From: Arctopsyche grandis
Taxonomy: Eukaryota > Arthropoda > Insecta > Trichoptera > Hydropsychidae
Direction: 5' to 3'
Length of the DNA: 64,000 nucleotides
Assembly: GCF_051622035.1 (NCBI RefSeq)
Contig: NC_135366.1
Coordinates: 749,001 to 813,000, forward strand
Positions 17,364 to 57,261 of this stretch are shown here, piece after piece. The notes beneath the pieces are model-generated. The model was not told the DNA's origin. It searched no databases and saw only the letters and a list, made by a program, of their open reading frames with translations. Within the stretch, counting starts at the first letter, position 1, and each line of letters opens with the position of its first letter. The position numbers and the translations under genes are program-made.

Positions 17364-17689
17364 TAAGGGGTCGAATAAAATAGTGGAAGAAAAATCGAAA
17401 AAGAGTAAACTACCACTTCCGGTTGACGACTGCTTACTAAATTTTATATATAACTTGCTTTTAAGCTTAAACTTCTAGATATGAAATTTCAGTTCAGTAA
17501 ATGCCGAACAGTTGGTACACATATGTGTTAGAGTTTAGTATAGGGAGTTGGTACCCCAGAATCGTTTGCGGGCGACAGTCAATCGCATCGAAGATATACG
17601 AACAATAAACGTATAAGATAGAATTAAGATCGCTTTTAATTGTCTCTATCTCCTGCAATCCTCCCTACTACCCAGCGGACCCTATATAA
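17364..17689. repeat. Dispersed repeat plus unrecognised sequence
   Basis: 17364-17505 repeats 21421-21565 closely (ccacttccggttgacgactg in both). 17510-17689 contains tgttagag, aataaacg and a pyrimidine-rich stretch; it might be an old LTR but I could not find a partner copy. No gene seen. Confidence 0.55.
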
Positions 17690-18160
17690 CTATTTCCCAT
17701 CTTGACTGACAAATTTCTCCGCCAGTGGGTAACTTTAAATTAGGCACTTTACAGTATGAACTTTTTATACATGTAGTATCTTGTTTACAGGTGATGACAG
17801 ATGTAGAATTCAAAAAGAAAAGGTACGCATATCAATATGGATTAGAAGGATGTAGACTGGAACAGAAACCAGGAGCTGTTCTCAAATAATCAAATATTCA
17901 AATTGTATCGGTTGTCCACTCTTATCCGTCGATAATCTCCAGGAAGTGTTGTCTTTGCCGAGCTACTCTTCGTTGCGAATAAATGGTATGTACATATATA
18001 TGAAAATCAAGCACAATGATTGCACAATACATATAACAATATTTACCTTTCGGTTTTAGAAAAGGAAGATTTACTTTCATCAGTAGGAAAAATATCAGCC
18101 AATAGCATATGTGCGAAAATAATTTCATTATTCATTAGTCTGCTGTAGAACCTCATTCTG
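17690..18160 (+). pseudogene. PRIM2 partial copy A (exons 6-7 remnant)
   Basis: Matches 51590-52050 of the intact PRIM2 gene, starting in the intron before exon 6. The exon 6 region (from about 17792) retains the acceptor and gatgacagatg, but a 9-bp stretch after gcatatcaa is missing and a base lost near 17870 shifts the frame. Exon 7 stops matching after aaaataatttcatt and jumps to sequence that normally lies downstream of the gene. Only two of the four iron-sulphur cysteine regions are covered. A duplicated, nonfunctional piece of the host gene. Confidence 0.85.
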
Positions 18161-25297: not shown

Positions 25298-26123
25298 TCC
25301 AGGTATTAAAAAAATGTTCATTTTTACATTTCTAAAAAACGCCCAATCAAAACGATTTCTTTTACAGATGTATTCGTATATTATATCAAGGAGAATGGTC
25401 TGATAGGATGGCTAGAAAAGTGAATTTGTCTGTAAAGTGATGACTGTCTTTTAATGATATGTTGCAATATTTTCATGAAAATCTTACAAATCTTTTTATT
25501 AGTCATTTTTAAATAACCCACTGTTGAAGAAGACAAATCAGCACATCTTTCTATGACGATTTATTTGTCATAACTATTTCTCATCTTGACTGATAAATTT
25601 CTCCGCCAGTGGGTAACTTTAAATTAGGCACTTTACAGTATGAACTTTTTATACATGTAGTATCTTGTTCACAGGTAGAATTCAAAAAGAAAAGGTACGC
25701 ATATCAAATGAGATATCAGTATGGATTAGAAGGATGTAGACTGGAACAGAAAGCCAGGAGCTGATCTCAAAGAATCAAATATTCAAATTGTGACGGTTGT
25801 CCACTTTTATCCGTCGATAATCTCCAGGAAGTGTTGTCTCTGCCGAGCTACTCTTCGTTGCGAATAAATGGTATGTACATATATATGAAAATCAAGCACA
25901 ATGATTGCACAATACATATAACAATACGTACCTATCGCTTTTAGAAAAGGAAGATTTACTTTCATCAGTAGGAAAAATATCAGCCAATAGCATATGTGCG
26001 AAAATAATTTCATTGAAGCATTTAAAAACAGACAGTTTTGAATCTACTATTCATCCGTTGCAATATTATGTTGAGAGTTTTAGTCAACATCTCGATGAGT
26101 GTAATGATTCGAGCGATGCTTAA
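25298..26123 (+). pseudogene. PRIM2 partial copy B (exons 5-7)
   Basis: Matches the intact gene from the intron before exon 5 to the stop codon. Exon 5 keeps its acceptor and start but has lost most of its middle, including the first iron-sulphur cysteine. The exon 6 acceptor region has lost about a dozen bases, and an insertion plus point changes disturb the exon after ctggaacag. Exon 7 (25945-26123) is open and ends in the normal stop. Exons 1-4 are absent. Nonfunctional segmental copy. Confidence 0.85.
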
Positions 26124-31155: not shown

Positions 31156-31259
31156 TCCCAAAGCCAAAAGGAATAGCGGAGGAACTAACGGGTGTCGTAG
31201 AATGCCCCGTTCCAAAGGATAAGTGTCCTTTATGTGAAGCTACATACAACGACGCCCAT

Positions 31260-31395
31260 TGTACGAACGCCAGGGGTTCTCAATCGAGAGCCACCTGATG
31301 TCGTGATGTGTGAATAGAGCTCGGTTCGGTTTTCCTCCAAGGTGCCTGCGGATCGTCGTCTGTGGTCTGGTCTCTGCTGATGGCTGCTCTGCTCT
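31260..31395 (-). mobile_element. Possible LTR remnant, fragment 2
   Basis: Matches 19425-19560 and breaks off at gctctgctcta, where LINE sequence begins. Confidence 0.35.
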
Positions 31396-31975
31396 AGATT
31401 TTCTATATTGTTTGAACAATGACCTTTTTATTAATCTATAAAAATGCTCTATTTTAAATTTCACTAGAAATAAGTCTATTTTCACCAATCACTATCAATT
31501 AAACCATTCTATTCTAAACACATCATCTTCTTTTAAGAATCTTGGTGTAGTACTCAATAATAAACTCGATTTATTTGAACATATTATTTCCTTTACCAAC
31601 AAAGCATTTAAATCTCTTGGATTCCTACTCCGCTCAACAAAACCCTTTATTGTTCCTTTTGTACTTAAATTACTTTATTTTTCGTTTGTAAGGTCTTACC
31701 TTGAATTTGCCTCAATTATCTGGTCACCTTTTTATTTATCCCATATTAATTGTATAGAGAAAGTCCAACTTAAATTTATTAAATCCTTACGCTACCTTTT
31801 TCCTACCTATACCCATTCTACTGTTCCCGATATTTTTAAATTCCTATCTTTTAACAATCTTTCTGTCAGGTGACGACTTACTGATGCTACATTCTTCTTT
31901 AAGCTCAGAAATGGTTTCCTTGATTGTTCTGATTTACTGAATAAGGTTAGGGTTGCCATAATTGTCAAGCATTGA
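31396..31975 (+). mobile_element. CR1/Jockey-group LINE, 3' fragment 2
   Basis: Matches 22175-22765 from agattttctatattgtttga onward, covering only the region C-terminal to the RT catalytic box. Frames are broken. The spacer 31976-32372 to its right is AT-rich, shared with 49840-50221, and includes a short hAT tail. Confidence 0.85.
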
Positions 31976-32372
31976 TACGGGACATTTAAGTGCTACTTAT
32001 AAATAAAACATGGACAAGTAGGTAGGTAATAGTTTATTTTTAAAAATTAGTCTTTTTTAGCCCAATCGTAAAAATGTTTTTTTCCCTACGAAGCAGCGGT
32101 ACCTACCTACACTAGTTCAGATTTAAAAGGCAAAAAATTTAATGGCCAATATTTTAGTAAATAAATCACTTTTCGGCCAGTATTTTCTTTCAAAACGGTT
32201 AATATTATTTTATTAAATGTCAATATAAATAAGTAAATAATATGAATAACATAATATAAATCAGTTACTACATAAATATGAAGATTTTCGAAGTAACAAA
32301 TTGTAAATATCTAAGGGACTCTATTTTTCATCTGGTAACCCTGGCTGTAAAGGGAAGTGATAGTGGGGCAAA

Positions 32373-32381
32373 TTTCGCGCC
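32373..32381 (+). promoter_or_regulatory. E2F-like site upstream of PRIM2 copy C
   Basis: tttcgcgcc lies 30 bp before the ATG at 32411, as in the intact gene. Confidence 0.6.
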
Positions 32382-32410
32382 ATCTGTCAAAACATATCAG
32401 CTGACAAGAC

Positions 32411-33804
32411 ATGCGAAACAGTGCAGCTGCAGCTCTGCATAAACTACGGGATGAATATTCTGATCATGTCCTTAACGTCACCAAACCACCAGCTGGAACT
32501 TTGCCTCTTCGCACAATTCAACGGTTAGAACTGAACCAAAATAAATTATATGTATAACGCATACATGTGCAAAACCACTTTTTTTTCTTCAGAATATGCA
32601 AACAACGTTTAGAAGTGTATTATGCTCTTAGTAAAATTATTCAGGTAAGTTATGAGTTTATGACTGATTCAAGTGATAAAACAAAATTTGATTAATTCAC
32701 ATATTACAATTTTCAAACTGTCTTATGAACGTCCAGGAAGATTTTATATTTAAAAACCAATTGGTACACAGAAGATCCCCAAATCAGTGTACTGAAAATT
32801 TTTAATCTCATCCATATGAGGTTAATTCTATTATTTATTATTATTGATTGTTGTATAAAATATTTTGCTGATTTATGTGAAAAATTCAGGTCACGTGGAA
32901 ATCTGTCTTACCTTTAATTCGTGCCAGATCGGTGCCTCTGTCGAATGGAAAAGCCTATGTCAACGCATCACACTTCATCTTTCTAGCATCCAGTTTTCAA
33001 ACAGAAAACATTTTAAAACACCTATCTGTTATTAAAATTGGACTTATTCGCTTATTTTCCTCCGTGTATGGAAAGGATTCATCATCACATTGAAACCAGG
33101 CATCACATCCGATACGAAGCTCGTGTACAGTTTATGCCATTTTTAAAAGATTTTACAAAGGTTTTTATTCGTCATTTTTAAATGACCCACTGTTGAAGAA
33201 GATAAATCAGCACATCTTTCTATGACGATTTATTTGTCATAACTATTTCTCATCTTGACTGACAAATTTCTCCGCCAGTGGGTAACTTTAAATTAGGCAC
33301 TTCAAAGTATGAATTTTTTATACATGTAGTATCTTGTTTACAGGTGATGACAGATGCAGAATTCAAAAAGAAAAGGTACGCATATCAAATGAGATATCAG
33401 TATGGATTAGAAGGATGTAAACTGGAACAGAAAACCAGGAGCTGTTCTCAAATAATCAAATATTCAAATTGTATCGGTTGTCCACTCTTATCCGTCGATA
33501 ATCTCCAGGAAGTGTTGTCTCTGCCGAGCTACTCTTCGTTGCGAATAAATGGTATGTACATATATATGAAAATCAAGCACAATGATTGCACAATACATAT
33601 AACAATATGTACCTATCGCTTTTAGAAAAGGAAAATTTACTTTCATCAGTAGGAAAAATATCAGCCGATAGCATATGTGCGAAAATAATTTCATTGAAGC
33701 ATTTAAAAACAGACAGTTTTGAATCTACTATTCATCTGTTGCAATATTATGTTGAGAGTTTTAGTCAACATCTCGATGAGTGTAATGATTCGAGCGATGC
33801 TTAA
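32411..33804 (+). pseudogene. PRIM2 partial copy C, with promoter, internally deleted
   Basis: Starts with the same promoter region and exon 1 as the intact gene. Exon 2 has lost most of its length (from after agtaaaatta to near its end). The exon 3 acceptor reads cacat instead of cacag. A deletion then removes the end of exon 4, the intron and the start of exon 5, and a second removes about 30 bp near the end of exon 5. Exons 6 and 7 are open to the normal stop at 33802-33804. Cysteines of exons 5-7 remain, but the joined protein would be disrupted. Nonfunctional as primase. Closest to the intact copy, so the duplication is recent. Confidence 0.88.
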
Positions 33805-36409: not shown

Positions 36410-39400
36410 TTAAATTATAATGTTTTTTATCGTGGTTACGTTATTTCGTGGACGCTTTATAATAATTGTAGAAGGCAGCCCTTTTTCGATTTTTATGCCT
36501 GTTGGATTGGATTTGGGATTGTTATTGAAGTTTTCTGGTATGTGAATTATGGGTGGCGGCGTGCACAAGTAAGACGTAGATGTGGCTGATGATGGTGAAA
36601 AAGAATTAACTTGTCCAGAGTTTCTATTTAAGTCATTAAGTTTGGCTTCAAATAATATGTTGTTGATAGCTTTTTCAGCGTATAGTCTCTGGGTGGGACT
36701 GAGTTCTTTCAATTTTTCAGACCATACCAAAGCAACTAGATCAACAGGTTTTTGGGGAGATTGGGAAGAAGTTGTGGGCTGAGACATCAAAGTACATGCT
36801 TTAGTCAGCAGCTGATTACGTTTTATCATCGGCTCATTTTGTTTTGTCATCGGCTCATTATGTTTAGCCATCGGCTCATTATGTTTTGCCACCGGATCAG
36901 GATTTTCATCAGCTCTATTTAGTTTTGGTAAAAACACGAGTGCGTGAAATGTTTTGGATGTCGGGATGTAAACTTCACCCAACCTTTTTGCGTTGTCAAT
37001 TTTTTTCAACTCTTTCCTGGAAGCAACATTGTTCAATAAATAATTTAGGGTCACAAAAAAAAACTAGGTAGGTACTTCTATAGCGACATTTTGATATTTG
37101 TAAATTGTATAATTCAGTCCCATATATTTGATTTTTTATCTTTTATCTTCTGTAAATTGTACAATATAAACTAATCAATTAATCTATATATGTGTAATTG
37201 TATGTATACGGTGTACTCTCGATTATCTGGATGCGGTTTATCGGGTTTGCAGATTATCCTTGCTTGAAATAAATTCAATTTACAATCAAATATATAATGC
37301 AGTTGAGACTGGATTATATTGGAAGTGTTTTCCAAATAAAAAGTTTGCTTCGTTAAAAGAAAAGTCCCTTCCCGGACGAATTCAGATCATTTGTAGAGCG
37401 TATTACAATCATGTTCTGTGGAAATGCATCAGCAATTGATAAAATGAAATTATTGTTAATTGGAAAACAAAAAAAAACTAGATCAGTTAAGGAGACTGAA
37501 AAAAAAATCTTCCTGTTGATTATTATATCCAAGAAGAAGCATGGATTTTTTTTTTTTTTTTTGGTGCCATCTTATCGATTCCCGATAAATCATCACCAGC
37601 GATATCGTTGCTCTTCAGATCATGTACGGGCACTACGGAATCATCACTCCGTCCCCAAAATTGTGAATTGAGCTTCTGAATCTCTCACATTCAGAACACC
37701 AATTCGTGAGGCTTTTTTCGCTTTAAACGCCTCTGCTGGTGAGTTGTGTCCAATAGCTGCAACGCTTCTATGTTAGGGTGACGGTGCAGTCTCAACTCGT
37801 GCCTCCCGGCGCATTCTCGGATGACTTCTTTTACTTTTTTGATTTTAAGGTCCTTGTGGATCTCTTCATTTGTGACGAAGCGATATGCATCGGTGATAAT
37901 CCTCAAAAACTGGTTTTGACATCTTTGCATTTTTTCGATATTGGATGGCTTACTGCATCCCCACAGTTGTATGCCATATGTCCATATTGGCTTCACGATT
38001 GCCTGGTATATCAGTTTTTTGCATTGTAGGTCTAATTTGGAGTGTCTTCCTATTAGCCAATGCATTTCTCTCTGTTTAATTCGAATCTGTTCTATTTTTT
38101 TTTTAATGTGATGCCTCCACGTAAGCCTTGAGTCAAGATGCAGTCCTAAATATTTAGCTGACAAAGCTTGTGGAACTTGGATTCCGTTTATGAAAGTCTG
38201 AGTGCTGACACTATTTCGTCGCAGTGCAAATGTGACCTGCATTGATTTTAGCTCGTTGAGTTTCATTTTCCAGTCCTTGGTCCATTTGCTGATCTTGTCC
38301 AGTGCACGCTGCAGGCGTTCAAATGCTTCCTTCTGTGACTCGCTCGATGACATAATGACTGTGTCATCTGCAAATGTTCCAATGAATGTCTCTTCGCTTG
38401 TCGGGATGTCAGCAGTGTATATCAGGTACAGTATAGGCCCTATTACGCTTCCCTGTGGTACTCCTGCAGAGGCTGTGAAAAAGTTAGAGAATGCCTCCTC
38501 ATGAGCAACTCTGAATTTGCGTCCGGATAAGTATGATTCCAGTAATTTGACATAATTTCCAGGTAATGACTTGCTGATTTTGTGGATAAGTCCTTCGTGC
38601 CATACCCTGTCGAAGGCCTGTGAGACATCAAGAAATACAGCTGGACAATACTTTTTTTCCTCTAGCGATTGCTCTATTTTTGAAATAACACGGTGCACTT
38701 GATCGATGGTAGAATGTTTCGACCTAAATCCAAATTGGAAGTCGGGAACATCGGTTAAGGGCTTGAGTCTTTTTAATAATAGTTTTTCGAATAGCTTAGA
38801 GATCGCAGGCAACAAGGATATTGGTCTGTATGATGTCACTTGTTCGGGTGACTTTTCAGGTTTCTTCAACATTATGATTTGAGCAGTTTTGAAGCACTCT
38901 GGCACATGCTTGAGCCGGAAACATGCATTGTATAAGTATGTTAGCATGATAATAGCCTTTTTTGAAAGTTCCTTGAATAGTCCCGGTGAGATTTCGTCAA
39001 TTCCAGGTGCCTTTTTAGGATTTATATTGTCATCTATTTCTTTAGCTACTTCCATAGGGGTGACAGTTTTGATTAGTTGCTGTGGTTGATACATTGGTGT
39101 ATAATCAGCATCAGATTGAATATTGTGTGGTTGGAATACTGTCTCTAAGTGTTGTGCAAACAGCTCAGCTTTTTCTTTGTTGCTTCTTATCCACTCTCCT
39201 TGCGCATTTTTCAGAGGTGGTATTTGTAGAATTGGTCGTTTGAATTTCCTAGTTGCTTTCCATAGTGAGTGATTTTTATCAGCTGCAGGGCCCAAACCTT
39301 CCAAATATTTTTCAAAACAAATTTGTTTATGCTCTTTAATAAGTCGGTTAACTTTGTTACTTATGTGGTTAAATTCTCTTTTGTCTGCAATATTTCTGGT

Positions 39401-42400
39401 TCTATGCCATATTCGTCTTGTTCTACGTCTTTCTTTAATCAATTGTCTAATTTCCATGGGGTAATTAATGATTTGGTCTGGTTTTTCTTTTGGTACAGGT
39501 GTAGCTTCTTTCGCAGCCTCTCGTACAGAGTCAATAAAATTTTGAGTGTGTAGTTCGAGATCTTCTATAGTTTTAAGTTTCACTATTAAATTTATTGATT
39601 GGTCTAGTTTTTTCCTGAACATATCCCAGTTAGTGCGTTTATTTGTCAGGTTCTGTCTCCTTATTCTTTTAATTACCAGTGTGCTCAGTGTCATTAGCAC
39701 TGGTGTGTGATCAGAAGTAAGGTCCTCTATTCCTTCGACCTCAATGTGGTTTGGGGCTATTCCTTTGGATATAAAAAAGTCAATTAAATCTGGTACCTTT
39801 TTACTGTCGGTCGGCCAGAAGGTTGGTTTTTGTGAGGAATGATACTCGCACGAGGAGCTCTGAATCGCGTATAGAAGGTTGTTTCCTTTACCAGGAGTTA
39901 TAAGTCGTGATCCCCAAGCTGTATGTTTAACGTTGTAGTCTCCTCCAATAATAAATCTTGGCCCAAGGGAATTAAAGATGTTTATAAATTGGTATTTTGT
40001 GATGGTATGCTTTGGAGGACAATATGCTGCAGCAATATTTAAGTCAGCATTGCCATATTTAATTGTGATGATAGTAGCTTGCATGAATGGTTCTCTGATA
40101 TCTTTTTGTTCGAAGTGCTGGATATTTTTTTTGATTAAAATAGCAGTACCACCGCGAGCTCGTTCACTAGGATGTGTTGTCCAATAAGCCGAGTATCCGT
40201 TTATCTTTATGTAACTTCTTTGTGAAAAGTGTGTTTCTGATATTAGTGCTAGATCGATGTTGTTTGTCTTTAGAAACACTTCAAGTTCATGGACTCTCTG
40301 ATTGAGTCCGTTTGCATTCCATGTTAATATGCGTAGGGAATTATCTGTCATTTTTATTATGTTTACTTGGTGATTTGCACTGATTTTCAATTTTTTCCAC
40401 TCTGGTTATGAGCCAGTTGAGTTGGTGTTTTATTTCAGTTTGAAAGTCACATAGCAACTGCATCATGCCACCGATGGTAGGTTCAATTGATTTATTTTCC
40501 TGCCCGATATCTTGTTTGCTTTTGTCTGCTTGGGACTTAGCTGCTTCACTATATGTTTTGTCCACAGTTGTTTGTTTATCAACAACTTCAATTTGATTTT
40601 GTTGTACGCGTTGTGTTACTGTTACCTTTTTGGGTTGTGATGCTTTTATCTTTTTTTTATAGACCTCACACCCCCTGTAGCTAGCTGGATGTCCTTGCTG
40701 GCCACACAGGGCACAAGTTGGGGGAACATTTTTCTGCTTGTTGCATTTTGTTGTGTGATGGTCTGCGGCACATTTGACGCATTTAGGTTGTCGATTGCAA
40801 AAATTTTTTGTATGCCCAAGTTGTTGACAGTTTGTACACTGAGGGATGTCTTTTACTTTCATTGGTGGTTCAATTGTTACTCTGCAATGTAGAAGTTCTT
40901 TAATACCATATACTTCTTTGCAGTTTTCTTTTGGCACCAGGTCTACAAAAAATAGTGGGAAATGTTTTATTTGTCTTTCACCATCGGTTGTAAATTTCTT
41001 CATAATATTTGCCACATTGGCCACTTCATATCCTTTATCTTTGAAAGAATCTTTTATTTCATTAACGTCTGTTGATGGCGGTAAACCTCTAACAACCACT
41101 CTATAGCACCTTTCATTCTTGAGTTGATAGGTGTGGTACTCTAGATTGTGAAGGGGGTTTTCGTTGTCTTTACATTCACGTTGTTTTAAATCATTTAGTG
41201 TTTTTTTGATTTTGCGATAATCTTCTTCGGTTTGTGTAGTGATTTTGATACTATTATTTGAAATTAATTTAAATTGGCATTGAATGGGTGGTGTTTCTGT
41301 TGTTGATAATAGATGAGCTCTAAACTTATTGAAGTCAATAACATTGCTCACATAAATAGGTGGTGGAAGTGGTTGTTTGTTAGGTTTATTGGTTTGCTGT
41401 TTTTGTGTTTCTTTCAGGTTATTTTGCGGGGAAGATAATACTTTATCTATTTTTCTTTTTTTACTTCTTTTCTCCGCATTTTGGCTAAGTTCATTTTCAA
41501 GTTCTTCTTCATCCGTGTGGTAGTCTTTATTCATATTGTCAAGACTTTTGCTCCTATTTAGAATAGATGTAGAAGGCCTGGATTTTTTTTCCATTGTTTC
41601 AATTCTTTTCTTTAAATCGGTTATAGTTATCTCATATTGTTTGCATCTGATTTCATATTGTTGGCATATATGTGTAAGTTGATCATACGGATCGTACTGC
41701 TGCGCCAGTGGCACTGGATTATCTGTGTTCATTTTTCAGAACGGGTGCAAAACTGCGCCGCGCCGGTGACAGCGCGGCAACAGTTTGATTTTGTTGTTGT
41801 ATATTCACTTATTATATTATATTATTGCAACTTTAAATTTTATTATAATAATTATTATATATTTATAAAATTTATAAATGTTAAATCGAACGCGATAAGG
41901 CGATAACGCACATCGACCGATTGCAACCGTGTACGGCGACGAACTTGGCATGGATGGATAGAGATCTTCGAAGATTGGTTCAAGACTAAGTGGGTTCCTG
42001 AAGTGAGAGACATTTTAAAAACTTGCCACAGAAAGCAGTATTGTTAATGAATAATGCTTCTCATCCGAACAAATATAAATATATTATGTATATTAAAAAA
42101 AATATATATTGTCTAATTTTGGTTGAAAGTAAAACCAATAACACTAGTTCGAACATGGAGAAAGATTCTTCCTAATGTAAAAATAAATTTATCAGATTGT
42201 GAAGAGATCAAAGCAGGTGATATATCTGTAATATACAGATTAATGGAAAATATCAAAAATTAGTACTTTATCGATAATACGATAATACTAAGATTATCCG
42301 TGTTTTTCAATTAACCTGCCCCCTTATTCCCCAAAATTAGCCCGGATAATCGAGAGTCCTCTGTAATAAAAACAATAAAGATCAATAAAAACAAATTAAG

Positions 42401-43572: not shown

Positions 43573-44541
43573 TTAATGCAGGGCGCAAGTGATCGCTTCC
43601 TCGACCATCGTCAGGGATGCGATTTCTCGCCTTGCGTTGCGTGCGTCTAAATGCGACGCTTTGGAGCGCGAGTGCGCCGAATTGCGCTCTCGCGCAAATA
43701 ATGTGAGTGTTGAGGGTGCGCGCTCATTCGCCAGGATCGCTGCTGGTCCTCCTCCAATATCTAGGCCAGGAGTTAGCGATCGGAGTTTGCCTGCGAGACC
43801 GCCTAGATCGGCTGTTTTGGTATACCCGAAGGAGATAACTTCGTCCTCGAGTTCCGAGGTCACCAAGAATATGCTGACCTCTGCGGTTAATTTGACCGAT
43901 GAGGGAATAGGAGTTTGGTCTGTGCGTCCTATTAAAAGCGCTGGCATCGCAGTTAATCCACGTACAGCTCTGGAAGCCTCTAAGATGGCTTCATCGATCA
44001 CCTCAAATAGTAATTTGGGATTAAGGGCCTCGGTGCCTTCCGCCTGGAAGCCACGCATTGAGATTTTGGAAGTTCCAGGCGATATGTCCGACGGCGACTT
44101 GGTCTCGGAGCTGTTAAGAGTTAACGCTGTTGAATTCAGCGGCTCTGATGTCAGAGTCGTTAGAAGGGTAAAGCCTGGTGCTTGAGGTACTGGTAGAGCT
44201 GTGCTGGAAGTTGTTCCTGCGTTGCGACATTTGCTGATTGCCGCCAAACGCGTATTTTTGGGTTGGTCCTCTTGCCGTGTTAGGGATCATATCAGGGATT
44301 TCAGATGTGTCATGCATATGGCCATTTTTCTGCGAAATGCCCTGAGAAAACCTGTACTTGTTCTCATTGCGCCAATATTGGACACGAGAGAAAAGATTGT
44401 CCTAAACTAGCCGATAAACCGACCTGTGCCTCTTGTATGCGTCTCAAACGTGAATCCAAACATAGGACTGGTGGATCGGACTGTCCTTTGTTCCGACGCT
44501 TTATGGATATGGAGAATGCTCGTACTGACTATGGCGCATAA
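43573..44541 (+). pseudogene. R1-clade LINE ORF1, broken
   Basis: The frame at 43589-44185 (SKCDALERECAELRSRANNV, a coiled-coil-like start, then RIEILEVPGDMSDGDLVSEL) matches the central region of R1-type ORF1. A TGA at 44183-44185 and a frame change near 44305 interrupt it. The last part, 44305-44541, carries the zinc knuckles CHAYGHFSAKC, CSHCANIGHERKDC and CASCMRLKRESKH and ends TDYGA. The N-terminus is missing. Confidence 0.8.
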
Positions 44542-47500
44542 TTACAATTTTCGTTTTGGGCAAATTAACTTGCGAAGATCTCGTGCAGCTACAGCACTAA
44601 TCTCGCAGATATGTTTGGATTGTCATATTGATATTTTGCTCATCCAGGAGCCTTATTCTACTGAGGGTAATATTCGTGGTCTGGGGCGACACGTTCGTGT
44701 TGTCACTGGACACAAATCTTCGGAGTACCCTTGGGCAGCTGTTGCTTTGTTTTCTCCTAATATCTCTGTTCTCTCTTTAGACCACTTGTCTGGATCACAT
44801 TATGTTTGTGTAGAGCTGTCTCTCAATGGATCTTCTTTTTATTCTGTTTCTTCTTATTTCCAACCATCCATCCCTGTTGATATCCATATTCAGACATTAG
44901 ATAATATTCTGTATCATCTGCGCCCTACTTCTAAAAAAATCATCATTGGTGGCGATTTTAATTATTACTCCCCACTCTGGGATCCTTGCCCCACAAATGA
45001 CAGGAGGAGATGCGTTTGGGGTAGCGCTCTTGAAGACTTTATTTTTCAACGCGATCTATATATTCACAACAACAGAGATGATATCCCGACGTTTGAAAGT
45101 CCTGCTGGCTCTTCTTATATTGATGTCACTTTGTCTTTGGGCTTAGATGCCGGTGATATGAAGAATTGGAGGGTTCATTTGGGAGAAACTCTGAGTGACC
45201 ATAACTTAATTACTTTCGATGTAAATTTTGAGTGTCCTATTAATTCTGTGTCTGGTTTGCCCTTACCTTTTCGTAACGGCACAAATCTATCTTGGATAAA
45301 TTTCAAATCTCGTCTCTGTAATTTCTTTGACGGTCATTCTGCTGCAAACAGTTGCCCTGATATGTGTGCTCCCGATTTGTGTGCTTCTGTAATTAACCTT
45401 GCTACCATTAGTATAGCACAATATGTCTTTGGTGGAGTTGGTGCTGTAGGTAGGCGCTCTACTCCTTGGTGGAATGACTACCTTGCATCCCTTAAATCCT
45501 TAGTCAAAAGGGCTATACGTAAATTACGCTCGGCTAAGCGTCGTGGTTTTGGTCCAGATTTTTTAATGCCCCTTGGTATCGAGGTTAGAAGAGCTTCTGC
45601 ACTTTTTAAGCGTCAAATTTTGCTGTCCAAAAAAAAGTCTTGGGAGAATTTTGTTAACTCGCAAGCAGGTTCGGGACCTTGGGGTCCAGCGTATAAGGCC
45701 ATCGCTAGGGACCCCGCTTTTATTATGTGTGGAGTTCATAGTCGTCTTGATGGTCACCTTGCTTTATCTAGTAGTGAAGCGGTTAATAACCTTGTGAATG
45801 CACTTATCCCTGTTGATCGCTTTGACAATGATCTACCTGTTCACGTTTGTATCCGTAATTTTGCTTGTCATGTTACTGAACTTAGTTGCTATGAAGACCT
45901 TCCGACTTCGGAGGAAGCTAGTGCGATTTTTAATAACCTAGGTCGGGGTAAGGCTCCTGGAGTTGATATGATAGGCGGAGATATTGCCAGAGCTGTTTGG
46001 TCGGTGGTTAATTTTGAACTTCTTAATGTTTATGGGAATTGTTTTAAATTTGGAACCTTCCCTAGTTGCTGGAAGGTTGGTAAATTGATTGTCATTAAGA
46101 AGTATAATACTGACAGATTAGCTAGTGACCCTAAGGCTTATCGCCCAATCAGTTTGTTACCTATTTTTGGGAAGGTCCTAGAGAGACTAATATCGAGTCG
46201 GCTCAGCAGATTCCTTGACGATAACTCTGTTTTATCCGATGGTCAATTTGGTTTTATATCGGGCAAGTCTACTTTTAATGCAATTCGCTGTGTCTTGAGG
46301 GAGTCTTCGGACTCTCCATCCAAGTATGTAGTTGTTATTTTGTTGGACGTTGCTGGAGCGTTTGATAATACCTGGTTGCCCATGCTATTGATCAAGTTGC
46401 GTCTGCTGGGACTGCATCCGAATTTACTATGCTTACTGCAGAATTACTTGTCGGATAGGAAATTGGTTTTCGAACTCGGTGGACAGGTTGGTTTCAGGGA
46501 TCTCTCTATTGGATGTCCACAGGGCTCCGTTTTGGGACCTATCCTTTGGAACATTCCTGTCAATGACCTTTTTACAATCAATTTGCCGGAGGGTTGCAAG
46601 TTGGTTGCGTACGCTGATGACATAGTGTTATTAACGCACGCAAAGTCCCGTGCTGATCTGGAATTTAAAGCAACTGCGGCACTTCACCTTCTAGTCGATT
46701 GGGTCATAATTTACAAATTTTCTTTCTCGCCCAAGTCCAAGTGCTTGTCGATAAAGGGTTCTCTTGTTAGAGCCCCTACTATTAAACTTAGAGACTGTAA
46801 GATCAAATTTGTCAATGAGTCCACTTATTTGGGTGTTGTTCTCGATGTCAGGCTTTCATTCAATGGTCATATTGGGAGAGCATTAGATAAAGCTAAGGTT
46901 TCCTTTGGTCGTATTGGTCGCCTCTGTGGTCGCTCATAGGGTTTAGGTTTCCATGACAAACGTTTGGTGTACGATGCTGTATTTGTGAACTCTTTGACGT
47001 ATGCATCTAGCATTTGGGGTCATCGTGTCGAATTAAAGTACAGTCCGTCGTACATTAAATAGTGGTCAGCGTTTTCCTCTGATAGCTCTTACCCAGGCCT
47101 ATCGCACTGCGTCTACAGACTCGCTACAGATTCTTGCGGGTACATTGCCACTTGATTTGATCGTCCAAATGAGAGCTGCTCGGGAAAAACTTCGTGATGG
47201 GTTAGATGCTACCGTCTCGGGCGTCCTTTTCCGTGCGCCTAATCAGTCACAGTGCGATGATCCTCGATTCTGGCTGAAGTCTGTTATTTTAAATTGTGCT
47301 ATTTCGGCTTGGCAACTTAGATGGGATTGTTCCTCCAAAGGTAGACACACCTATTTATTTTTTCCGAGGGTCACTTCGTGCCTTGAGCGTTATTGGCTAT
47401 CGCCCAGTTTTTGGACCAGTCAATTTTTGACTGGTCATGGCCACTTTAACGGCAAGCTCGCATCTATGGGCTTGGTATCTGAGTCCTTTTGTCCGTGTTC

Positions 47501-47711
47501 TTTTCCGGTGCAGGATGCAGATCACATTCTGTGGTCCTGTCCTGGGATGGAGACTGAGAGGAGGGTTCTGCTAAACAGCGTCAGGGGTTCTCTCATTGGC
47601 CCCCTGCATCATGGGGATTTAGTAATGAATAGAGCATCGTTTACAGCTTTTGAAAAGTTCGCGGAATGCTTTGGGAAGCTGTGTTCCCCTGAATGCTACT
47701 ACTCCACTTGA
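44531..47711 (+). pseudogene. R1-clade LINE ORF2, broken near the C-terminus
   Basis: From the ATG at 44531 (MAHNYNFRFGQINLRRSRAA) the frame is open to 46939. It contains the endonuclease (LLIQEPYS, IIGGDFNYYSPLW, LSDHNLITF) and the complete reverse transcriptase core (YRPISLLPIFGKVLERLI, ILLDVAGAFDN, GCPQGSVLGPILWNI, VAYADDIVLL). A stop follows CGRS at 46937, and near 47050 the frame is disturbed again. 47145-47711 reads in another frame, MRAAREKLRDGLDATVSG, to the C-terminal zinc motif CPCSFPVQDADHILWSC. Old but well preserved; not able to make full ORF2. Confidence 0.88.
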
Positions 47712-47992: not shown

Positions 47993-48308
47993 TATGCACG
48001 TATAAACATACAAACATGTATGTTTACTTGAAGTGTGCGTGCATTCGCAGGGCACATTTCAGGTATTGTTTCCTAACGCTTGCGCGCTTTATGTGTTCAT
48101 GCGTTGTTGTTTATTTTGTACTTGGTTATGTACAGTGTGGTTTTTTTTAATAGAACAGTGATGTGCTGTTGTTCTTGTGCGATATTCATGAACAACCGTC
48201 TCGTTCTCCGACGAAAGAGTCTCTTAGACTGTATTCGTTGGGGGGGTGGTGGCCTTATGTTGAGGGCTTTAAGGGTCAAATTCCTTGACCTTTATAGCGG
48301 GCTTAGTA
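47712..48308 (+). repeat. GT-rich 3' UTR of the R1-clade LINE
   Basis: 47770-47992 consists of GT runs interrupted by gtatggttttgtggtttgtg repeats, ending in a pure (TG)n of about 40 bp. The following 300 bp are unique and look like further 3' UTR, so the GT tract lies inside the element and not at its target. Confidence 0.7.
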
Positions 48309-48702
48309 TTACTTTTTACTAACCCCTTAGCGCCAGTGGCTACGTCCATACTACCGATATCTACACCCGATATTTTCGAAATTTTCCATATTGCAACCTG
48401 TGGTTGCTATTTAGGAACTGGTTATGGCAAATTTCGTAAATAATTTTTTCGCAAATTACGGCAAATAAATCGATCTATGAATCGAAAATGACGGCTGTGC
48501 CCCCTTCGGGGCCCCATGCGGCTGCGCCCCCTGCGAGGACTTTGAATCCATTGAATCGAAAAAAGTCGAATCGGCGCCTATGAATCGAAAAAAAAAACGA
48601 ATCATTTGTTCGATGACGTCACGGATCTACGGACGAACGAACGAACCAAGGATACATACATATATACAAAGTCTCTTTCCAAATTATATATTAGATTTTA
48701 TC
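48309..48702. other. Noncoding DNA, start of segmental duplication S4
   Basis: Collinear with 30437-30858 except for small gaps. No gene. Confidence 0.8.
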
Positions 48703-48999
48703 ATGTCAAAAATGTGCAAACTAAAATTTGAAACAGACTACTTTGAAAATGAACACATTTATATTTTGAATAGTAAAACCCCTAAGATCGAAAATCGACA
48801 AGCAGATGTAAGTATTATAGTGATATTTTTATGATAAATATAAAAAGACCAATACCTTTAAGTACCAAACGTTTTTCAATTATATTTACAGAAGCTCTCA
48901 AGCGACGACATCTTGAACAAACAAAAGGATAGTAGGGACAACACCCCTATCAAAGCGAGGCTTAGAGGTTTGGAAATTAGGATCTATGTACTAATTTGA
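48703..48999 (+). CDS. Gene X, copy in S4 (unidentified small protein)
   Basis: Exons 48703-48807 and 48892-48999, consensus GT/AG, in phase, 70 residues: MSKMCKLKFETDYFENEHIY at the N-terminus, KLSSDDILNKQK and RLRGLEIRI in exon 2. The predicted protein is the same as at 30859. About 1.3 kb upstream of PRIM2 on the same strand. Not recognised. It may be the truncated start of a larger gene whose rest was replaced by the LTR/LINE junction downstream. Confidence 0.45.
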
Positions 49000-49103
49000 T
49001 CCCAAAGCCAAAAGGAATAGCGGAGGAACTAACGGGTGTCGTAGAATGCCCCGTTCCAAAGGATAAGTGTCCTTTATGTGAAGCTACATACAACGACGCC
49101 CAT

Positions 49104-49239
49104 TGTACGAACGCCAGGGGTTCTCAATCGAGAGCCACCTGATGTCGTGATGTGTGAATAGAGCTCGCTTCGGTTTTCCTCCAAGGTGCCTCCGGATCGT
49201 CGTCTGTGGTCTGGTCTCTGCTGATGGCTGCTCTGCTCT
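49104..49239 (-). mobile_element. Possible LTR remnant, fragment 3
   Basis: Same piece and same breakpoint (gctctgctcta) as at 31260-31395. Confidence 0.35.
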
Positions 49240-49819
49240 AGATTTTCTATATTGTTTGAACAATGACCTTTTTATTAATCTATAAAAATGCTCTATTTTA
49301 AATTTCACTAGAAATAAGTCTATTTTCACCAATCACTATCAATTAAACCATTCTATTCTAAACACATCATCTTCTATTAAGGATCTTGGTGTAGTACTCA
49401 ATAATAATCTCGATTTATTTGAACATATTATTTCCTTTACCAACAAAGCATTTAAATCTCTTGGATTCCTACTCCGCTCAACAAAACCCTTTAATGTTCC
49501 TTATGTACTTAAATTACTTTATTTTTCCTTTGTAAGGTCTCACCTTGAATTTGCCTCAATTATCTGGTCACCTTTTTATTTATCCCATATTAATTGTATT
49601 GAGAAAGTCCAACTTAAATTTATTAAATCCTTGCGCTACCTTTTTCCTACCTATACCCATTCTACTGTTCCCGATATTTTAAAAATCCTATCTTTTAACA
49701 ATCTTTCTGTCAGTCGACGACTTACTGATGCTACATTCTTCTTTAAGCTCATAAATGGTTTCCTAGATTGTTCTGATTTACTGAATAAGGTTAGGGCTGC
49801 CATAATTGTCAAGCATTGA
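49240..49819 (+). mobile_element. CR1/Jockey-group LINE, 3' fragment 3
   Basis: Collinear with 31396-31975. The last part, from 49631, is open (TVPDILKILSFNNLSVSRRL). 49820-50221 is AT-rich spacer shared with 31976-32372. Confidence 0.85.
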
Positions 49820-50221
49820 TACGGGACATTTAAGTGCTACATATAAATAAAACATGGACAAGTAGGTAGGTAATAGTTTATTTTAAAAAATTAGTCTTTT
49901 TTAGCCCAATCGTATTTTAATCGTAAAAACGTTTTTTTCCCTACGACGCAGCGGTACCTACCTACACTAGTTCGGATTTAAAAAAATTGAATGGCCAAGA
50001 TTTTAGTAAATAAATCACTTTTCGGCCAGTATTTTCTTTCAAAACGGTTAATATTATTTTATTAAATGTCAATATAAATAAGTAAATAATATGAATAACA
50101 TAATATAAATCAGTTACTACATAAATATGAAGATTTTCGAAGTAACAAATTGTAAATATCTAAGGGACTCTATTTTTCATCTGGTAACCCTGGCTGTAAA
50201 GGGAAGTGATAGTGGGGCAAA

Positions 50222-50230
50222 TTTCGCGCC
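50222..50230 (+). promoter_or_regulatory. E2F-like site of the PRIM2 promoter
   Basis: tttcgcgcc matches the E2F/DP consensus TTTSSCGC and lies 30 bp before the PRIM2 ATG. DNA polymerase alpha-primase genes are classical E2F targets in animals. The site is also kept in copy C. Confidence 0.65.
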
Positions 50231-50259
50231 ATCTGTCAAAACATATCAGCTGACAAGAC

Positions 50260-52142
50260 ATGCGAAACAGTGCAGTTGCAGCTCTGCATAAACTACGGGA
50301 TGAATATTCTGATCCCGTCCTTAACGTCACCAAACCACCAGCTGGAACTTTGCCTCTTCGCTCAATTCAACGGTTAGAACTGAACCAAAATAAATTATAT
50401 GTATAACGTATACATGTGCAAAACCACTTTTTTTCTTCAGAATATGCAAACAACGTTTAGAAGTGTATTATGCTCTTAGTAAAATTACCCTTTCACTCGT
50501 GCAATTCTCCGACGACTGGAATGTGGCCATCTTGGCAAAACTCAAGGAAAACTTTCCCGACACATACCAATTATGCACGAGCCGTGGTATAATAACGATT
50601 CAACATTTGAAGACTCGACACTACGATAGAATTGCTAGATTTTTCATGTATCATGTTGCCGTCAATAGTAAATCTCTTGGCATCTGTGAATGGATCGTCA
50701 ACTGCGAAATCTGCCTATTCAGGTCATTATTTAGGTAAGTTATTTGTTTATGACTGATTCAAGTGGTAACATAAAAATTGATTAATTCACAGATTACAAT
50801 TTTCAAACTGTCTTATGAACGTCCAGGAAGATTTTATATTTAAAAATCAATTGGCACACAGAAGATCCCCAAATCAGTGTACCGAAATATTTGAATCTCA
50901 TCCATATGAGGTTAATTCTATTATTTATTATTATTGTTAGTTGTATCAGATATTTTACTGATTTATATGAAAAATTCAGGTCACGTGGAAATCTGTCTTA
51001 CCTTTAATTCGTGCCAGATCGGTGCCTCTGTCGAAAGGAAAAGCCTACGTCAACGCATCACACTTCATCTTTCTAGCATCCAGTTTTCAAACAGAAAACA
51101 TTTTAAAACACCTATCTGTTATTAAAATTGGACTTGCGACTGTTAAATGTGATCCAAGAATCGATAAGATGATCAAAGATTTTCAATCAACATCTGAAAA
51201 GTATTTTATGTTCATTCACATTAAATTTCTAAAATACGCCCAATCAAAACGACTTCTTTTACAGATGTATTCGTATATTATATCAAGGAGAATGGTCCGA
51301 TAGGATGGCTAGAAAAGTGAATTTGTCTAATCTTGACGACTTATCCGCTTATTTTCCTCCGTGTATGGAAAGGATTCATCATCACATTGAAACCAGGCAT
51401 CACATCCGATACGAAGCTCGTGTACAGTTTATGCCATTTTTAAAAGATATAGGCCTGTCTTTGAATGATATGTTGCAATATTTTCATGAAAATTTTACAA
51501 AGGTTTTTATTCGTCATTTTTAAATAACCCACTGTTGAAGAAAATAAATCAGCACATCTTTCTATGACGATTTATTTGTCATAACTATTTCTCATCTTGA
51601 CTGACAAATCTCTCCGCCAGTGGGTAACTTTAAATTAGGCACTTCAAAGTATGAATTTTTTATACATGTAGTATCTTGTTTTCAGGTGATGACAGATGCA
51701 GAATTCAAAAAGAAAAGGTACGCATATCAAATGAGATATCAGTATGGATTAGAAGGATGTAGACTGGAACAGAAAACCAAGAGCTGTTCTCAAATAATCA
51801 AATATTCAAATTGTGACGGTTGTCCACTCTTATCCGTCGATAATCTCCAGGAAGTGTTTTCTCTGCCGAGCTACTCTTCGTTGCGAATAAATGGTATATA
51901 TATATGAAAATCAAGCACAATGATTGCACAATTCACATAACAATACGTACCTTTCGGTTTCAGAAAAGGAAGATTTACTTTCATCAGTAGGAAAAATATC
52001 AGCCAATAGCATATGTGCGAAAATAATTTTATTGAAGCATTTAAAAACAGACAGTTTTGAATCTACTATTCATCCGTTGCAATATTATGTTGAGAGTTTT
52101 AGTCAACATCTCGATGAGTGTAATGATTCGAGCGATGCTTAA
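50260..52142 (+). CDS. PRIM2: DNA primase large subunit, complete (7 exons)
   Basis: Exons 50260-50372, 50441-50734, 50793-50910, 50980-51200, 51265-51502, 51686-51893, 51964-52142, all GT-AG with matching phases; 456 residues (human PRIM2 about 509). The protein is the regulatory subunit of primase within the polymerase alpha complex and helps start RNA primers at replication origins and lagging strands. Seen: RHYDRIARFFMYHV (family RDHISHFILRL), SKGKAYVNASHFI (FAYVPLKDIV), YFPPCMERIHHHIETRHHIR with FLKDIGLSL, then YAYQMRYQYGLEG. All four iron-sulphur cysteines are placed: FPPC in exon 5, KSCSQI and DGCPLL in exon 6, SICAKI in exon 7. The N-terminus is shorter than in vertebrates and the HPNQFF block is diverged (HPLQYY). 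Most complete of four copies in the window; likely functional. Confidence 0.92.
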
Positions 52143-53300: not shown

Positions 53301-56165
53301 TCACAAAAATCCTTTGGTTTTAAAAAAAGTATCAAGTTTATTCTTAAAAATATTAATATTAATAGAGGTTACTAAATCGTTGGGAAGACTATTCCAAACT
53401 GAAACCACTCTGTTAGAAAAGAATGTATCTCTGATCAATTTGTTAGATTTATCTTTTTGGAGTCTAAGCGTGTGACCTCTGAGGTGAGTGTTTATGTTGA
53501 ATGAAATAACATTAGACATATGACAATTATAGTGATTATTAAGAATTTTATAGACTTCGATTAAGTCACCTCTAGATCTTCTCGTCTCCAATGTAGTGAG
53601 ATTCATTATTTTCAATCTTTCGTTATAAGAAAGTGATTTGAGTTCAGAAGGAATCTTTGAAATTCTCCTTTGAACCCTTTCAATACATGTAATATCCTTT
53701 TTAAAATGAGGATTCCATATGCAAAAAGCGTATTCAAGTCTAGGTCTGATGAAAGTTTTATATATTTTTGTTAAAATAGTTAAATTTAGAAAATTGAATA
53801 CCCGCTTTATAACATACAAAAATGAGTAAGTTTTGTTGACAATATGATTTATATGAGCGGACCATTTTAGGTCGCAAGTGGTGATGATACCTAGGTCTAA
53901 TTGGTATTGGACGCAATTCAGGAAAAGGCTGTTTATTTTGTAGGAAAGATTTGGGTTATTATTTCCTAGGTGGAGAACAGAGCATTTCTTAACATTTAAA
54001 GTTAAAAGCCAAGTTTTAGACCACGTGACAATTGTGTCCAAATCGCTTTGAAGGGAATTTCTGCCATCTGAGTTGGCAGGACAATAAAGTTTAATGTCGT
54101 CAGCGAAAATAGAATATTTACAAGTGAGGTCATTTGCTATATCATTAATAAAAATTAAAAAAAGAATTGGCCCTAAAACAGAGCCTTGGGGAACACCACT
54201 AAGGACGGGATGAGATTCTGAAGAGCAGGATCCAATCCTCACCGAGAAGTATCTAGACTTTAAAAACACTCTGATCCAGTCAAGTAGCCTTCCTCTCACA
54301 CCTATATGCTCGATTTTTAGTAAAAGCCGATCGATAGGAACTCTATCAAAGGCTTTTTCGAAGTCAAGATAGACGACATCTACGGGTATATTATTATTAA
54401 GAAGGAGAGACCAATCATTGTGCACGGTTAAAAGGTTACTCAGTACTGATCGGCCTTTTATAAAACCATGCTGGTATTTAGATAAAAGGTTACAAGACTC
54501 AAGAAATTTAGTCAGTTGAGAGGCGATGATTTTTTCAAAACATTTTAGCAAAATGGGTGAAAGACTGATAGGACGATAATTAGTGGCTTCTAATTTGTTT
54601 CCCTTTTTGTAGATAGGAATAATGTTAGAAGTTTTCCATTCGTTGGGTATAAAGGAAGATATAAAGGAATGATTGAAGAGTTTAAAGAGGGGACGAGATA
54701 TGGATAGAGCAGTTTTTTTAAAAAAAAGTGAAGGTAAGTTATCATTACCAGGGGCGGAGTTGTCTCCCAGGTTGTGTAAAACCTCTGAAACGACTTTTTC
54801 GGAAAACATTATGTTATTAATTACTGTTGAATTTCGGGACAAGTTAGGAAGCATCGGCAGATTTGTAGAGTCTTCTTTGATGAATGAGTTGCTAAAGGCC
54901 TTAGCAAAAGTGTTGGCTATTAAGAGGGGATCCGTAATAAGCTCCTTTTTTTCATTCATGATTGTGGAAACTACAATTTTAGATTTTAGGTTAGAGTTTA
55001 AGTATTTAAAGAAAACTTTGCAATCGCCAGAAGCGATTGAAAGTTCAAAGTCACGCTTTGAGTTTCTTATTTGTTTAGTGACTTCATTATTAAGTTTTCT
55101 ATAATTAGCATAACCCTCATGGGTTTTATGTTTAGCATAAATGTTCCAAAGTTTCCGTTTTTCTTTAATCAGAATCAATATAGGTTTATTGATCCACGGT
55201 TTACATTTGGATTTGAATGGTTTAAGGAAAGGAACAAATTTTTGTATGCCAGCATTTATAATATGATAAAAAGAATCCCACTTAGAATGAATATTAATTT
55301 CGAGTTCTAAAAATGACCAATCGCTGTCTATAAAAAAATCATTCAATTTCTCATAGTCGGCTAATTTAAAGTTACGCTTTAAGAAAGGATCAGTTTGAGG
55401 TTTACATTGGGATCGATCACACCATTGAATCAGAGAGTTAATTATAATATGATCACTTAGACCAATTGGGGAGTCAGAGAGAATCGATGATAAGAAATTG
55501 TGGGAGTTTGAGAAAACTAGGTCCAATGTCGATGGTCGATTACATCCTCGAAAACGAGTAGGGAAGTCTACCAGTTGATTTAGTCCTGAATTTGCGATGC
55601 AATCAAGAAACTCAGCTGCAGAGCCGGAAAGACCAACTGGGCTGAGAAACTTCCAGTTAATGGTAGGAAAGTTGAAGTCTCCAAAAATCAGCGTTGGACA
55701 GCTTTTACATCCTTCATTGGCGATGACGTTGAAAAGTTTGATGTCTTCCTCAAATGTGGAAGTGGGAGGTCTATAAATACACGCTAAGATAAATTCGCAG
55801 CAGTTAAAACAAACCTTTAACCACAAGTGTTCAATGCCTGATATTGAGATATTGGATGGTAAAAATCTTTCAACCACAATACATGGATTATTAGAAGAAA
55901 TTTTTACATAAATGCAAACACCTCCTCCTCTTCTATCTTCCCTATCGGATCTATAAATAGCAAAATTAGGAATTTCTACGACACTGTCAGGTATGTTATT
56001 ATTTAGCCACGATTCACTTATTAATATTATATCGGGATTGTTATTAATTATGTAAAGTTGAAACTCACTGAATTTGGGAATTATTGAGGAGATATTCGTA
56101 TACATAATTTTAATTTCAAGATAAGCATTAATGTAGAAGTTATTTCTATTGATGTTAGTAGCCAT
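53301..56165 (-). CDS. CR1-like ORF2: endonuclease and reverse transcriptase
   Basis: 954 residues, uninterrupted. Endonuclease in the first 230 residues (LISESWLNNN, RSDREDRRGGGVCIYV, GDFNFPTINW, LSDHIIINSL). Reverse transcriptase about 470-760 (NYRPISLSPILLKCFEKII, VYLDFEKAFDRVPIDRLL, GVPQGSVLGPILFLIFIND, FADDIKLY). The C-terminal region has RPRLEYAFCIWNP and ERVQRRISKI. SRYFSVRIG and the VPQGSVLGP block are typical of the CR1/Jockey group. The ATG (MATNINRNNF) overlaps the ORF1 stop by 11 nt. An intact ORF suggests recent activity. Confidence 0.92.
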   Translation of the reverse strand: MATNINRNNFYINAYLEIKIMYTNISSIIPKFSEFQLYIINNNPDIILISESWLNNNIPDSVVEIPNFAIYRSDREDRRGGGVCIYVKISSNNPCIVVERFLPSNISISGIEHLWLKVCFNCCEFILACIYRPPTSTFEEDIKLFNVIANEGCKSCPTLIFGDFNFPTINWKFLSPVGLSGSAAEFLDCIANSGLNQLVDFPTRFRGCNRPSTLDLVFSNSHNFLSSILSDSPIGLSDHIIINSLIQWCDRSQCKPQTDPFLKRNFKLADYEKLNDFFIDSDWSFLELEINIHSKWDSFYHIINAGIQKFVPFLKPFKSKCKPWINKPILILIKEKRKLWNIYAKHKTHEGYANYRKLNNEVTKQIRNSKRDFELSIASGDCKVFFKYLNSNLKSKIVVSTIMNEKKELITDPLLIANTFAKAFSNSFIKEDSTNLPMLPNLSRNSTVINNIMFSEKVVSEVLHNLGDNSAPGNDNLPSLFFKKTALSISRPLFKLFNHSFISSFIPNEWKTSNIIPIYKKGNKLEATNYRPISLSPILLKCFEKIIASQLTKFLESCNLLSKYQHGFIKGRSVLSNLLTVHNDWSLLLNNNIPVDVVYLDFEKAFDRVPIDRLLLKIEHIGVRGRLLDWIRVFLKSRYFSVRIGSCSSESHPVLSGVPQGSVLGPILFLIFINDIANDLTCKYSIFADDIKLYCPANSDGRNSLQSDLDTIVTWSKTWLLTLNVKKCSVLHLGNNNPNLSYKINSLFLNCVQYQLDLGIITTCDLKWSAHINHIVNKTYSFLYVIKRVFNFLNLTILTKIYKTFIRPRLEYAFCIWNPHFKKDITCIERVQRRISKIPSELKSLSYNERLKIMNLTTLETRRSRGDLIEVYKILNNHYNCHMSNVISFNINTHLRGHTLRLQKDKSNKLIRDTFFSNRVVSVWNSLPNDLVTSININIFKNKLDTFFKTKGFL

Positions 56166-57216
56166 AATCCGTTTTATTGATCATAATGGTGAGCTGGTTT
56201 TTAAGTTCAGGGCACTGGTTGATTCTTGTCATATGATTGCTGGGTTTGTTAGTTATAGTACAATTGAAGCATTTGGGCGGGTTCGATGTAGATGGACAAT
56301 TTGAAACTAGATGACCAGAAGAAGCACAGTGAGAACAATTTGGTTTTTCCTCTTTGCAATATTTTATAGAGTGCCCGAAGTTGCAGCAGCGTGAGCATTT
56401 AAGCACGCTAATGTAGTCATCGATCCTGCACGAATTCCAGTCTATGAAGCATCTTCCTTGGTTTACAAGTTTTTTTCGGAGTGCTGGCGAAGTGGAATAC
56501 ACTCTGTGGCAGGTGGGCCCTTCCCGAGAACCCGCTAGGTGACTGAATTTAATGTTATTAGAGACGTCAGTTCCGAAGTCTTCTATCAAAATTTTCATAA
56601 TTCTGTCGTCGGGTACATCTCTAGGAACGTATTTAACAATAATTTTTGGCCAACGCTTTTTCGGGAATACTACATTTAGCTTAGCCAAATTAATTTCATT
56701 ACACTTTGCAATTAATTCGCAGTCTATGATAGAGTTTGTAAAAATCACCAAACCATTGTTACTGACCTTTTTTAAACCTATTACTTTAGCACCTATTTTA
56801 GTGGGGTTAATTGCTGCTTGGAGAGTGGCTTGTGTTGCTTCAGAACTGGAAATTCCAGAATCCTTGCAGGGGTATATGATTACAGCGGGAGATGGAGATT
56901 TAGCTGCGATCCCCGTGTTCGCCACCTTCAAGTGTCTGGATCCGGAGCTTGAAGCCGCTACTTCGGAGAACAGCTGAGTTTGAGATGCGAGTGGTGTTCG
57001 TTTGTCGGAGATCTCATCAGTTAAAATATCCAACAATCTTTGTACGGATTCTTTGATACATTTGGATTTGGCAGTGGTAAGCATGTTACCACTTGCTAGT
57101 ATCTCCAGGATTATAGTTTGTTGTTTTATAGCTTCGTTTAATTTCTTCATTATAATTGTTACAATTTGAAAAAATAAAAATATTGGCGCAAGATTCGGCA
57201 CGATAAGTCGACACAC
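56155..57216 (-). CDS. CR1-like ORF1: zinc-knuckle RNA-binding protein
   Basis: Up to 353 residues; a likelier start is the Met at 57150 (MKKLNEAIKQQTIILEILAS), giving about 331. A helical N-terminus is followed by an RRM-like region (IIVKYVPRDVPDDRIMKILI). Zinc knuckles follow: CSRCCNFGHSIKYC, CSHCASSGHLVSNC, and a third CFNCTITNKPSNH. It ends NKTDYGY, closely like TDYGA at the end of the R1-type ORF1 in this window. Presumed role is packaging LINE RNA. Intact. Confidence 0.88.
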   Translation of the reverse strand: MCRLIVPNLAPIFLFFQIVTIIMKKLNEAIKQQTIILEILASGNMLTTAKSKCIKESVQRLLDILTDEISDKRTPLASQTQLFSEVAASSSGSRHLKVANTGIAAKSPSPAVIIYPCKDSGISSSEATQATLQAAINPTKIGAKVIGLKKVSNNGLVIFTNSIIDCELIAKCNEINLAKLNVVFPKKRWPKIIVKYVPRDVPDDRIMKILIEDFGTDVSNNIKFSHLAGSREGPTCHRVYSTSPALRKKLVNQGRCFIDWNSCRIDDYISVLKCSRCCNFGHSIKYCKEEKPNCSHCASSGHLVSNCPSTSNPPKCFNCTITNKPSNHMTRINQCPELKNQLTIMINKTDYGY

Positions 57217-57223
57217 GTGCGAT

Positions 57224-57261
57224 TGCTGCCGATAATCGATTCAAACTGATTATCGGCAGCA
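57224..57261. repeat. Perfect 14-bp inverted repeat at the 5' end of the CR1-like LINE
   Basis: tgctgccgataatc and gattatcggcagca with a 10-base loop, just upstream of ORF1. Confidence 0.9.

Follow-up and report, generated by a model that had tools for sequence, protein, structure and literature searches.

An intact, divergent PRIM2 paralogue among broken duplicates in the genome of the caddisfly Arctopsyche grandis

The primase large subunit (PRIM2/p58/Pri2, PF04104) is normally thought of as the product of an essential single gene. PRIM2 is an E2F target, and the HGGR motif of the subunit forms an important primer/template loop. Fast-evolving duplicated paralogues of housekeeping replication genes make up a general class, in which the essential gene is conserved while the duplicate drifts. 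PRIM2 has an N-terminal domain that connects PRIM1 with POLA1 and a C-terminal domain that remains on the primer 5′ end (PMC10969946), and the cluster cysteines of yeast Pri2 lie at positions 336, 417, 434 and 474 (PMC4348247). Judged by titles and the openings of abstracts, the open-licence literature yielded no paper on insect PRIM2 duplicates. Here we describe copy D, a PRIM2 homologue that shares a 64,000-nucleotide window (the whole stretch of DNA analysed, C12:749001–813000 of a 475.7-Mb assembly) with three broken copies, A, B and C. We argue with moderate confidence that copy D is a still-functional, fast-evolving PRIM2 paralogue that arose as an old DNA-level duplicate.

Copy D is formed by seven exons bordered by GT donors and AG acceptors (Table 1), whose joined frame of 1,371 nt encodes 456 residues with no internal stop; a search for the frame, splice-site or length lesions of a pseudogene found none. 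The protein matches the Pfam family DNA_primase_lrg (PF04104) over profile positions 2–266 of 266 (E = 3.2e-43), scoring 148 bits where the cut-off is 22.4. Among solved chains it matches 22 distinct primase large subunit sequences, the best being 8g99_C (E = 6.3e-29, 104 bits), which we take to be the Xenopus chain; 4rr2_B, presumably the human chain, matches at E = 1.8e-24. An N-terminal domain is present ahead of the cluster domain and is weakly conserved, with the best solved chain covering residues 21–442 of copy D. Overall identity is 27% to the canonical PRIM2 of the same genome (described below), 25% to the human protein and 23% to a second divergent relative on contig C11. Cysteines 282, 362, 374 and 415 (in FPPC, KSC, DGC and SIC) align with the human, Xenopus and canonical PRIM2 cysteines and, by the columns of the family, are the predicted ligands of a 4Fe–4S cluster; the steps between them are 80, 12 and 41 residues, against 81, 17 and 40 in yeast Pri2. 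The original prediction, that seven exons join in phase into a full primase large subunit with these four motifs as Fe–S ligands, is borne out by the intact 456-residue frame, its GT–AG borders, the PF04104 match and cysteines that share columns with those of the solved chains and the canonical protein.

Table 1. Features of copy D and of the three partial PRIM2 copies in the window
Feature	Position in window	Strand	Basis or content
E2F-like site TTTCGCGCC	50222..50230	+	motif; starts 38 nt 5′ of copy D ATG
Copy D exon 1	50260..50372	+	spliced frame
Copy D exon 2	50441..50734	+	spliced frame
Copy D exon 3	50793..50910	+	spliced frame
Copy D exon 4	50980..51200	+	spliced frame
Copy D exon 5	51265..51502	+	first predicted cluster cysteine (FPPC) and altered YEAR loop
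Copy D exon 6	51686..51893	+	second and third predicted cluster cysteines (KSC, DGC)
Copy D intron 6	51894..51963	+	codon and phase (1) match the canonical PRIM2 intron
Copy D exon 7	51964..52142 (stop included)	+	fourth predicted cluster cysteine (SIC)
Copy C	32411..33804	+	tblastn and alignment; without most of exon 2 and late exon 4 to early exon 5
Copy B	25314..26123	+	tblastn and alignment; without exons 1–4 and part of exon 5
Copy A	17686..18129	+	tblastn and alignment; part of intron 5, gapped exon 6, part of exon 7

The E2F-like site that had been predicted near the start codon is likewise present, with 29 nt between the end of TTTCGCGCC at 50222 and the ATG. This 9-mer occurs twice in the window, here and at 32373, before copy C, with no occurrence on the other strand. 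A match to TTTSSCGC on either strand has a chance of 0.0074 in any 100 bp of window-like sequence. By count the 8-mer TTTSGCGC is unremarkable (six matches in the window against 2.76 expected, a number equalled in 10 of 100 shuffles); its position alone is telling.

Copies A, B and C, which the original prediction had called defective, all lie upstream of copy D; each is partial, having lost coding parts, and none spans the whole protein. Beyond the losses given in Table 1, copy C has an additional gap inside exon 5 and copy B a short gap where exon 6 begins. All four copies sit in duplicated units, with a repeated piece upstream that we call reverse-transcriptase-like from a reading of its frame, and another repeated block downstream. 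The main blastn pieces of the PRIM2 copies differ by about 4–8%. The D and C units (48307–50487 against 30435–32639) are identical to each other only in patches, the difference being 0–1.3% over 48307–49356, 0 in 50107–50256 and 2.7% across the next 150 bp, with values of up to 4.7% overall. This pattern suggests unequal exchange or gene conversion.

The duplicated units are separated or flanked by three non-LTR retrotransposon-like blocks (37691–41735, 44411–47711 and 53301–57240). All of these contain long frames, and each holds one frame with reverse transcriptase and endonuclease domains. A separate tandem array at 11591–16878 consists of a 2,289-bp unit repeated at 100% identity, with two complete units and a third truncated at 710 bp; the unit contains 24-, 72-, 85- and 87-bp repeats of its own, and the 12–16 kb region has a strong G and T skew. 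On the minus strand, 2982–4013 encodes a frame of 343 aa that matches the AAA_11 helicase domain (2.8e-12). An Rfam scan of the window gave zero matches.

That copy D was under constraint in the past follows from its frame, which is intact and retains the cysteines at 27% identity to canonical PRIM2. Present-day constraint is likely, as comparison of the copies indicates. In blocks chosen by eye, D and C differ at 22 of 933 sites in exons and at 24 of 448 in introns (p = 0.006), with the same direction for D and B (10/470 against 19/296, p = 0.003) and for D and A (5/249 against 11/172, p = 0.03). Since the patchy identity described above suggests gene conversion, simple counts are weakened. 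Scoring of changes private to one copy was confined to sites covered by two or more of the other copies, with mixed-pattern sites excluded (two exon, six intron, one flank). On this basis the D lineage has changed at 3 of 391 sites in exons and at 13 of 400 in introns and 3′ sequence (p = 0.02); the private changes of the three broken copies taken together fall at 11 of 391 exon and 15 of 400 non-coding sites (p = 0.55), and the 3:13 split of copy D does not differ significantly from the 11:15 of the broken copies (p = 0.18). Selection on the amino-acid sequence is not visible between copies, as non-synonymous change is not clearly less frequent than synonymous change (pN and pS of 0.022 and 0.031 for D–C, 0.021 and 0.022 for D–B, 0.020 and 0.019 for D–A).

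These values, with pN/pS at about 0.7 for D–C and about 1 for D–B and D–A, fit the main rival explanation, in which copy D is recently dead: functional for most of its history, it would have lost expression and not yet have been hit. All three exon changes private to D are non-synonymous, three of the four copies are broken and transposon frames lie all around, each of which is in keeping with such a fate. Neutral simulation cuts both ways: at 3.25% change, 9.2% of 5,000 runs left the frame stop-free under substitutions alone, but the figure falls to 0.08% when splice sites and length must also be kept, under an assumed indel rate. A frame and splice sites free of lesions, and exon changes in the D lineage rarer than non-coding ones, also speak against recent death, which we regard as possible but unlikely.

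A genome-wide search for the PRIM2 family gave at least six matches (C12:9.05 Mb, contig C69, C11:18.54 Mb and three pieces inside the window), and a search with the D protein at least 23, with 20 belonging to the cluster inside the window and single matches at C12:9.05 Mb, on C11 and on C69; match counts for repeats and large families are lower bounds. The C12:9.05 Mb locus, 8.25 Mb from the window on the same contig, is the canonical PRIM2, with 502 residues and one intron. It is 43% identical to the human protein (copy D, 25%), and its first exon alone scores 358 bits against 8g99_C, where the whole of copy D scores 104. At C11:18.54 Mb (L003:1066-2322) lies an intact, intronless PRIM2-like frame, 418 aa from its first ATG, which matches PF04104 at 1.5e-38; its protein is divergent with all four cysteines kept, and it occupies one genomic place in both searches. 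An E2F-type site, TTTCCCGCCAAG, lies 17 nt 5′ of the canonical ATG, and an E2F-like site, TTTCGCGCA, 148 nt 5′ of the first ATG of the C11 frame.

The far more conserved canonical gene makes it very improbable that copy D is the genome's working PRIM2, or one of its main ones, even though it is full length and has both the cysteines and the E2F-like site. The suggestion that copy D might be the only working gene thus finds no support, with a further divergent relative present on C11; and a separate single-copy PRIM2, one of two findings that the original prediction had named as jointly counting against it, exists at C12:9.05 Mb for the canonical type. What stands of that prediction is a full-length homologue with its ligands amid broken copies; a role as the genome's main PRIM2 looks improbable.

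Intron 6 of copy D and the canonical PRIM2 intron share the same alignment column (452), the same codon and phase 1. The match in position and phase marks copy D as having been duplicated at the DNA level from a PRIM2 that contained introns; a processed retrocopy was rejected, copy D having six introns, one of them common with the canonical gene. Introns 1–5 have no counterpart in canonical PRIM2 and may have been either lost by the canonical gene or gained by D. On the reading we favour, copy D goes back to an old duplication of the genome's PRIM2 at the DNA level and has evolved fast while staying intact. It lies in a cluster of duplicated units, and the three remaining PRIM2 copies there have lost coding parts.

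Capture of a parasite or viral gene would be a different source. The assembly does contain a PRIM2 on the microsporidian-like contig C69, and in a six-sequence tree copy D groups with the C69 and C11 proteins at 97% support. All three are long branches, however, and their grouping is the result that long-branch attraction would be expected to give; the pairing of D with C11 within it appears weak, at 58% support among long branches. Copy D has seven exons, one of its introns agrees in position and phase with that of the host gene, the solved chains it matches best are ones we take to be vertebrate, and a viral-contig scan gave 34 pattern matches of which none was confirmed. The C11 protein had no match among phage sequences. 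The common host intron and the unconfirmed viral matches led us to set aside a microsporidian or viral origin, to which we attach very little probability. Least probable is that the extra PRIM2 copies are an assembly artefact: tandem repeats do lie nearby, such as the 100% identical 2,289-bp units, but the copies differ by about 4–8%, in their deletions and in the sequence between them.

Contig C69 (58.7 kb, 28% GC) has 25 ATG-started frames of at least 100 aa that make up 46% of its length; from our reading of these frames, histones among them, we take it to be microsporidian. Contig C51 is provisionally taken as microsporidian too, solely from its 26% GC and the 276-aa frame of a 3.4-kb locus. 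Both C69 and C51:26483 are AT-rich, with intronless divergent genes, and probably come from a parasite, present in the sequenced material, that has a PRIM2 and a PRIM1 of its own. Contig C1, which is at least 36 Mb long, contains a COX1 frame of 512 aa (C1:36084329-36085669) that uses the invertebrate mitochondrial code and reads as insect-like; we take it to be mitochondrial DNA, inserted or misjoined.

Some residues that human, Xenopus and canonical PRIM2 have in common are altered in copy D, which counts against the reading we favour. The HLRHGGRMQY of PRIM2 reads HIRYEARVQF in copy D, so that the R of the HGGR loop is kept and the H and GG are changed, and FWK/FWR is replaced by YFH. The loop also departs from HGGR in the C69 (YTDR) and C11 (HNER) proteins; because of this we do not treat it as a strict hallmark of PRIM2. 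Human, Xenopus and canonical PRIM2 are identical at 161 columns, of which copy D keeps 71 of 159 alignable, the C11 protein 72 of 150 and the C69 protein 61 of 149. That copy D retains so many of them, together with the four cysteines, at an overall identity of 25–27% speaks for the favoured reading. Given YEAR for HGGR and YFH for FWK/FWR, we infer that copy D may handle primers differently. None of six candidate primer-contact residue names occurs in PMC6298731, and a search by residue name gave no primase paper.

One tentative extension, which we put forward as doubtful, is that the genome has three working types of PRIM2, one conserved and two diverging. The diverging types, copy D and the C11 gene, would then serve as alternative primases with the host PRIM1 in a special setting (germ line, endoreplication or telomere filling), their primer-end loop being under recurrent change, for example in conflict with selfish elements. 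A dedicated second primase with a PRIM1 of its own was rejected: a genome search for PRIM1 gave three matches, two of them pieces at one place on C5 and the third on the microsporidian-like C51. In the host PRIM1 gene (C5:1.450–1.452 Mb), a 430-aa frame reads through one PRIM1 coding piece and on into sequence like that of a reverse transcriptase, which we read as an apparent insert between the coding pieces of the gene.

A canonical PRIM2 accompanied by two intact, diverged relatives would bear on which primase contacts can change and on what purpose a spare subunit serves; should copy D prove silent, the locus would be a commonplace tandem duplication in the course of decay. Set against the PRIM2/p58/Pri2 family (PF04104), copy D is alike in its alignment with a vertebrate PRIM2 over residues 21–442, the register of its cysteines and its E2F-like site, and unlike in its 25% identity to human, the YEAR loop and the 14 residues that follow the last conserved block. 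With the canonical PRIM2 of its host it shares the phase 1 intron at column 452 and an E2F-type site close upstream, but the canonical gene has 502 aa and one intron where copy D has 456 aa and six, and the proteins are 27% identical. The C11 frame resembles copy D in being divergent, with four cysteines and an altered loop (HNER), and differs from it in having no introns and 23% identity.
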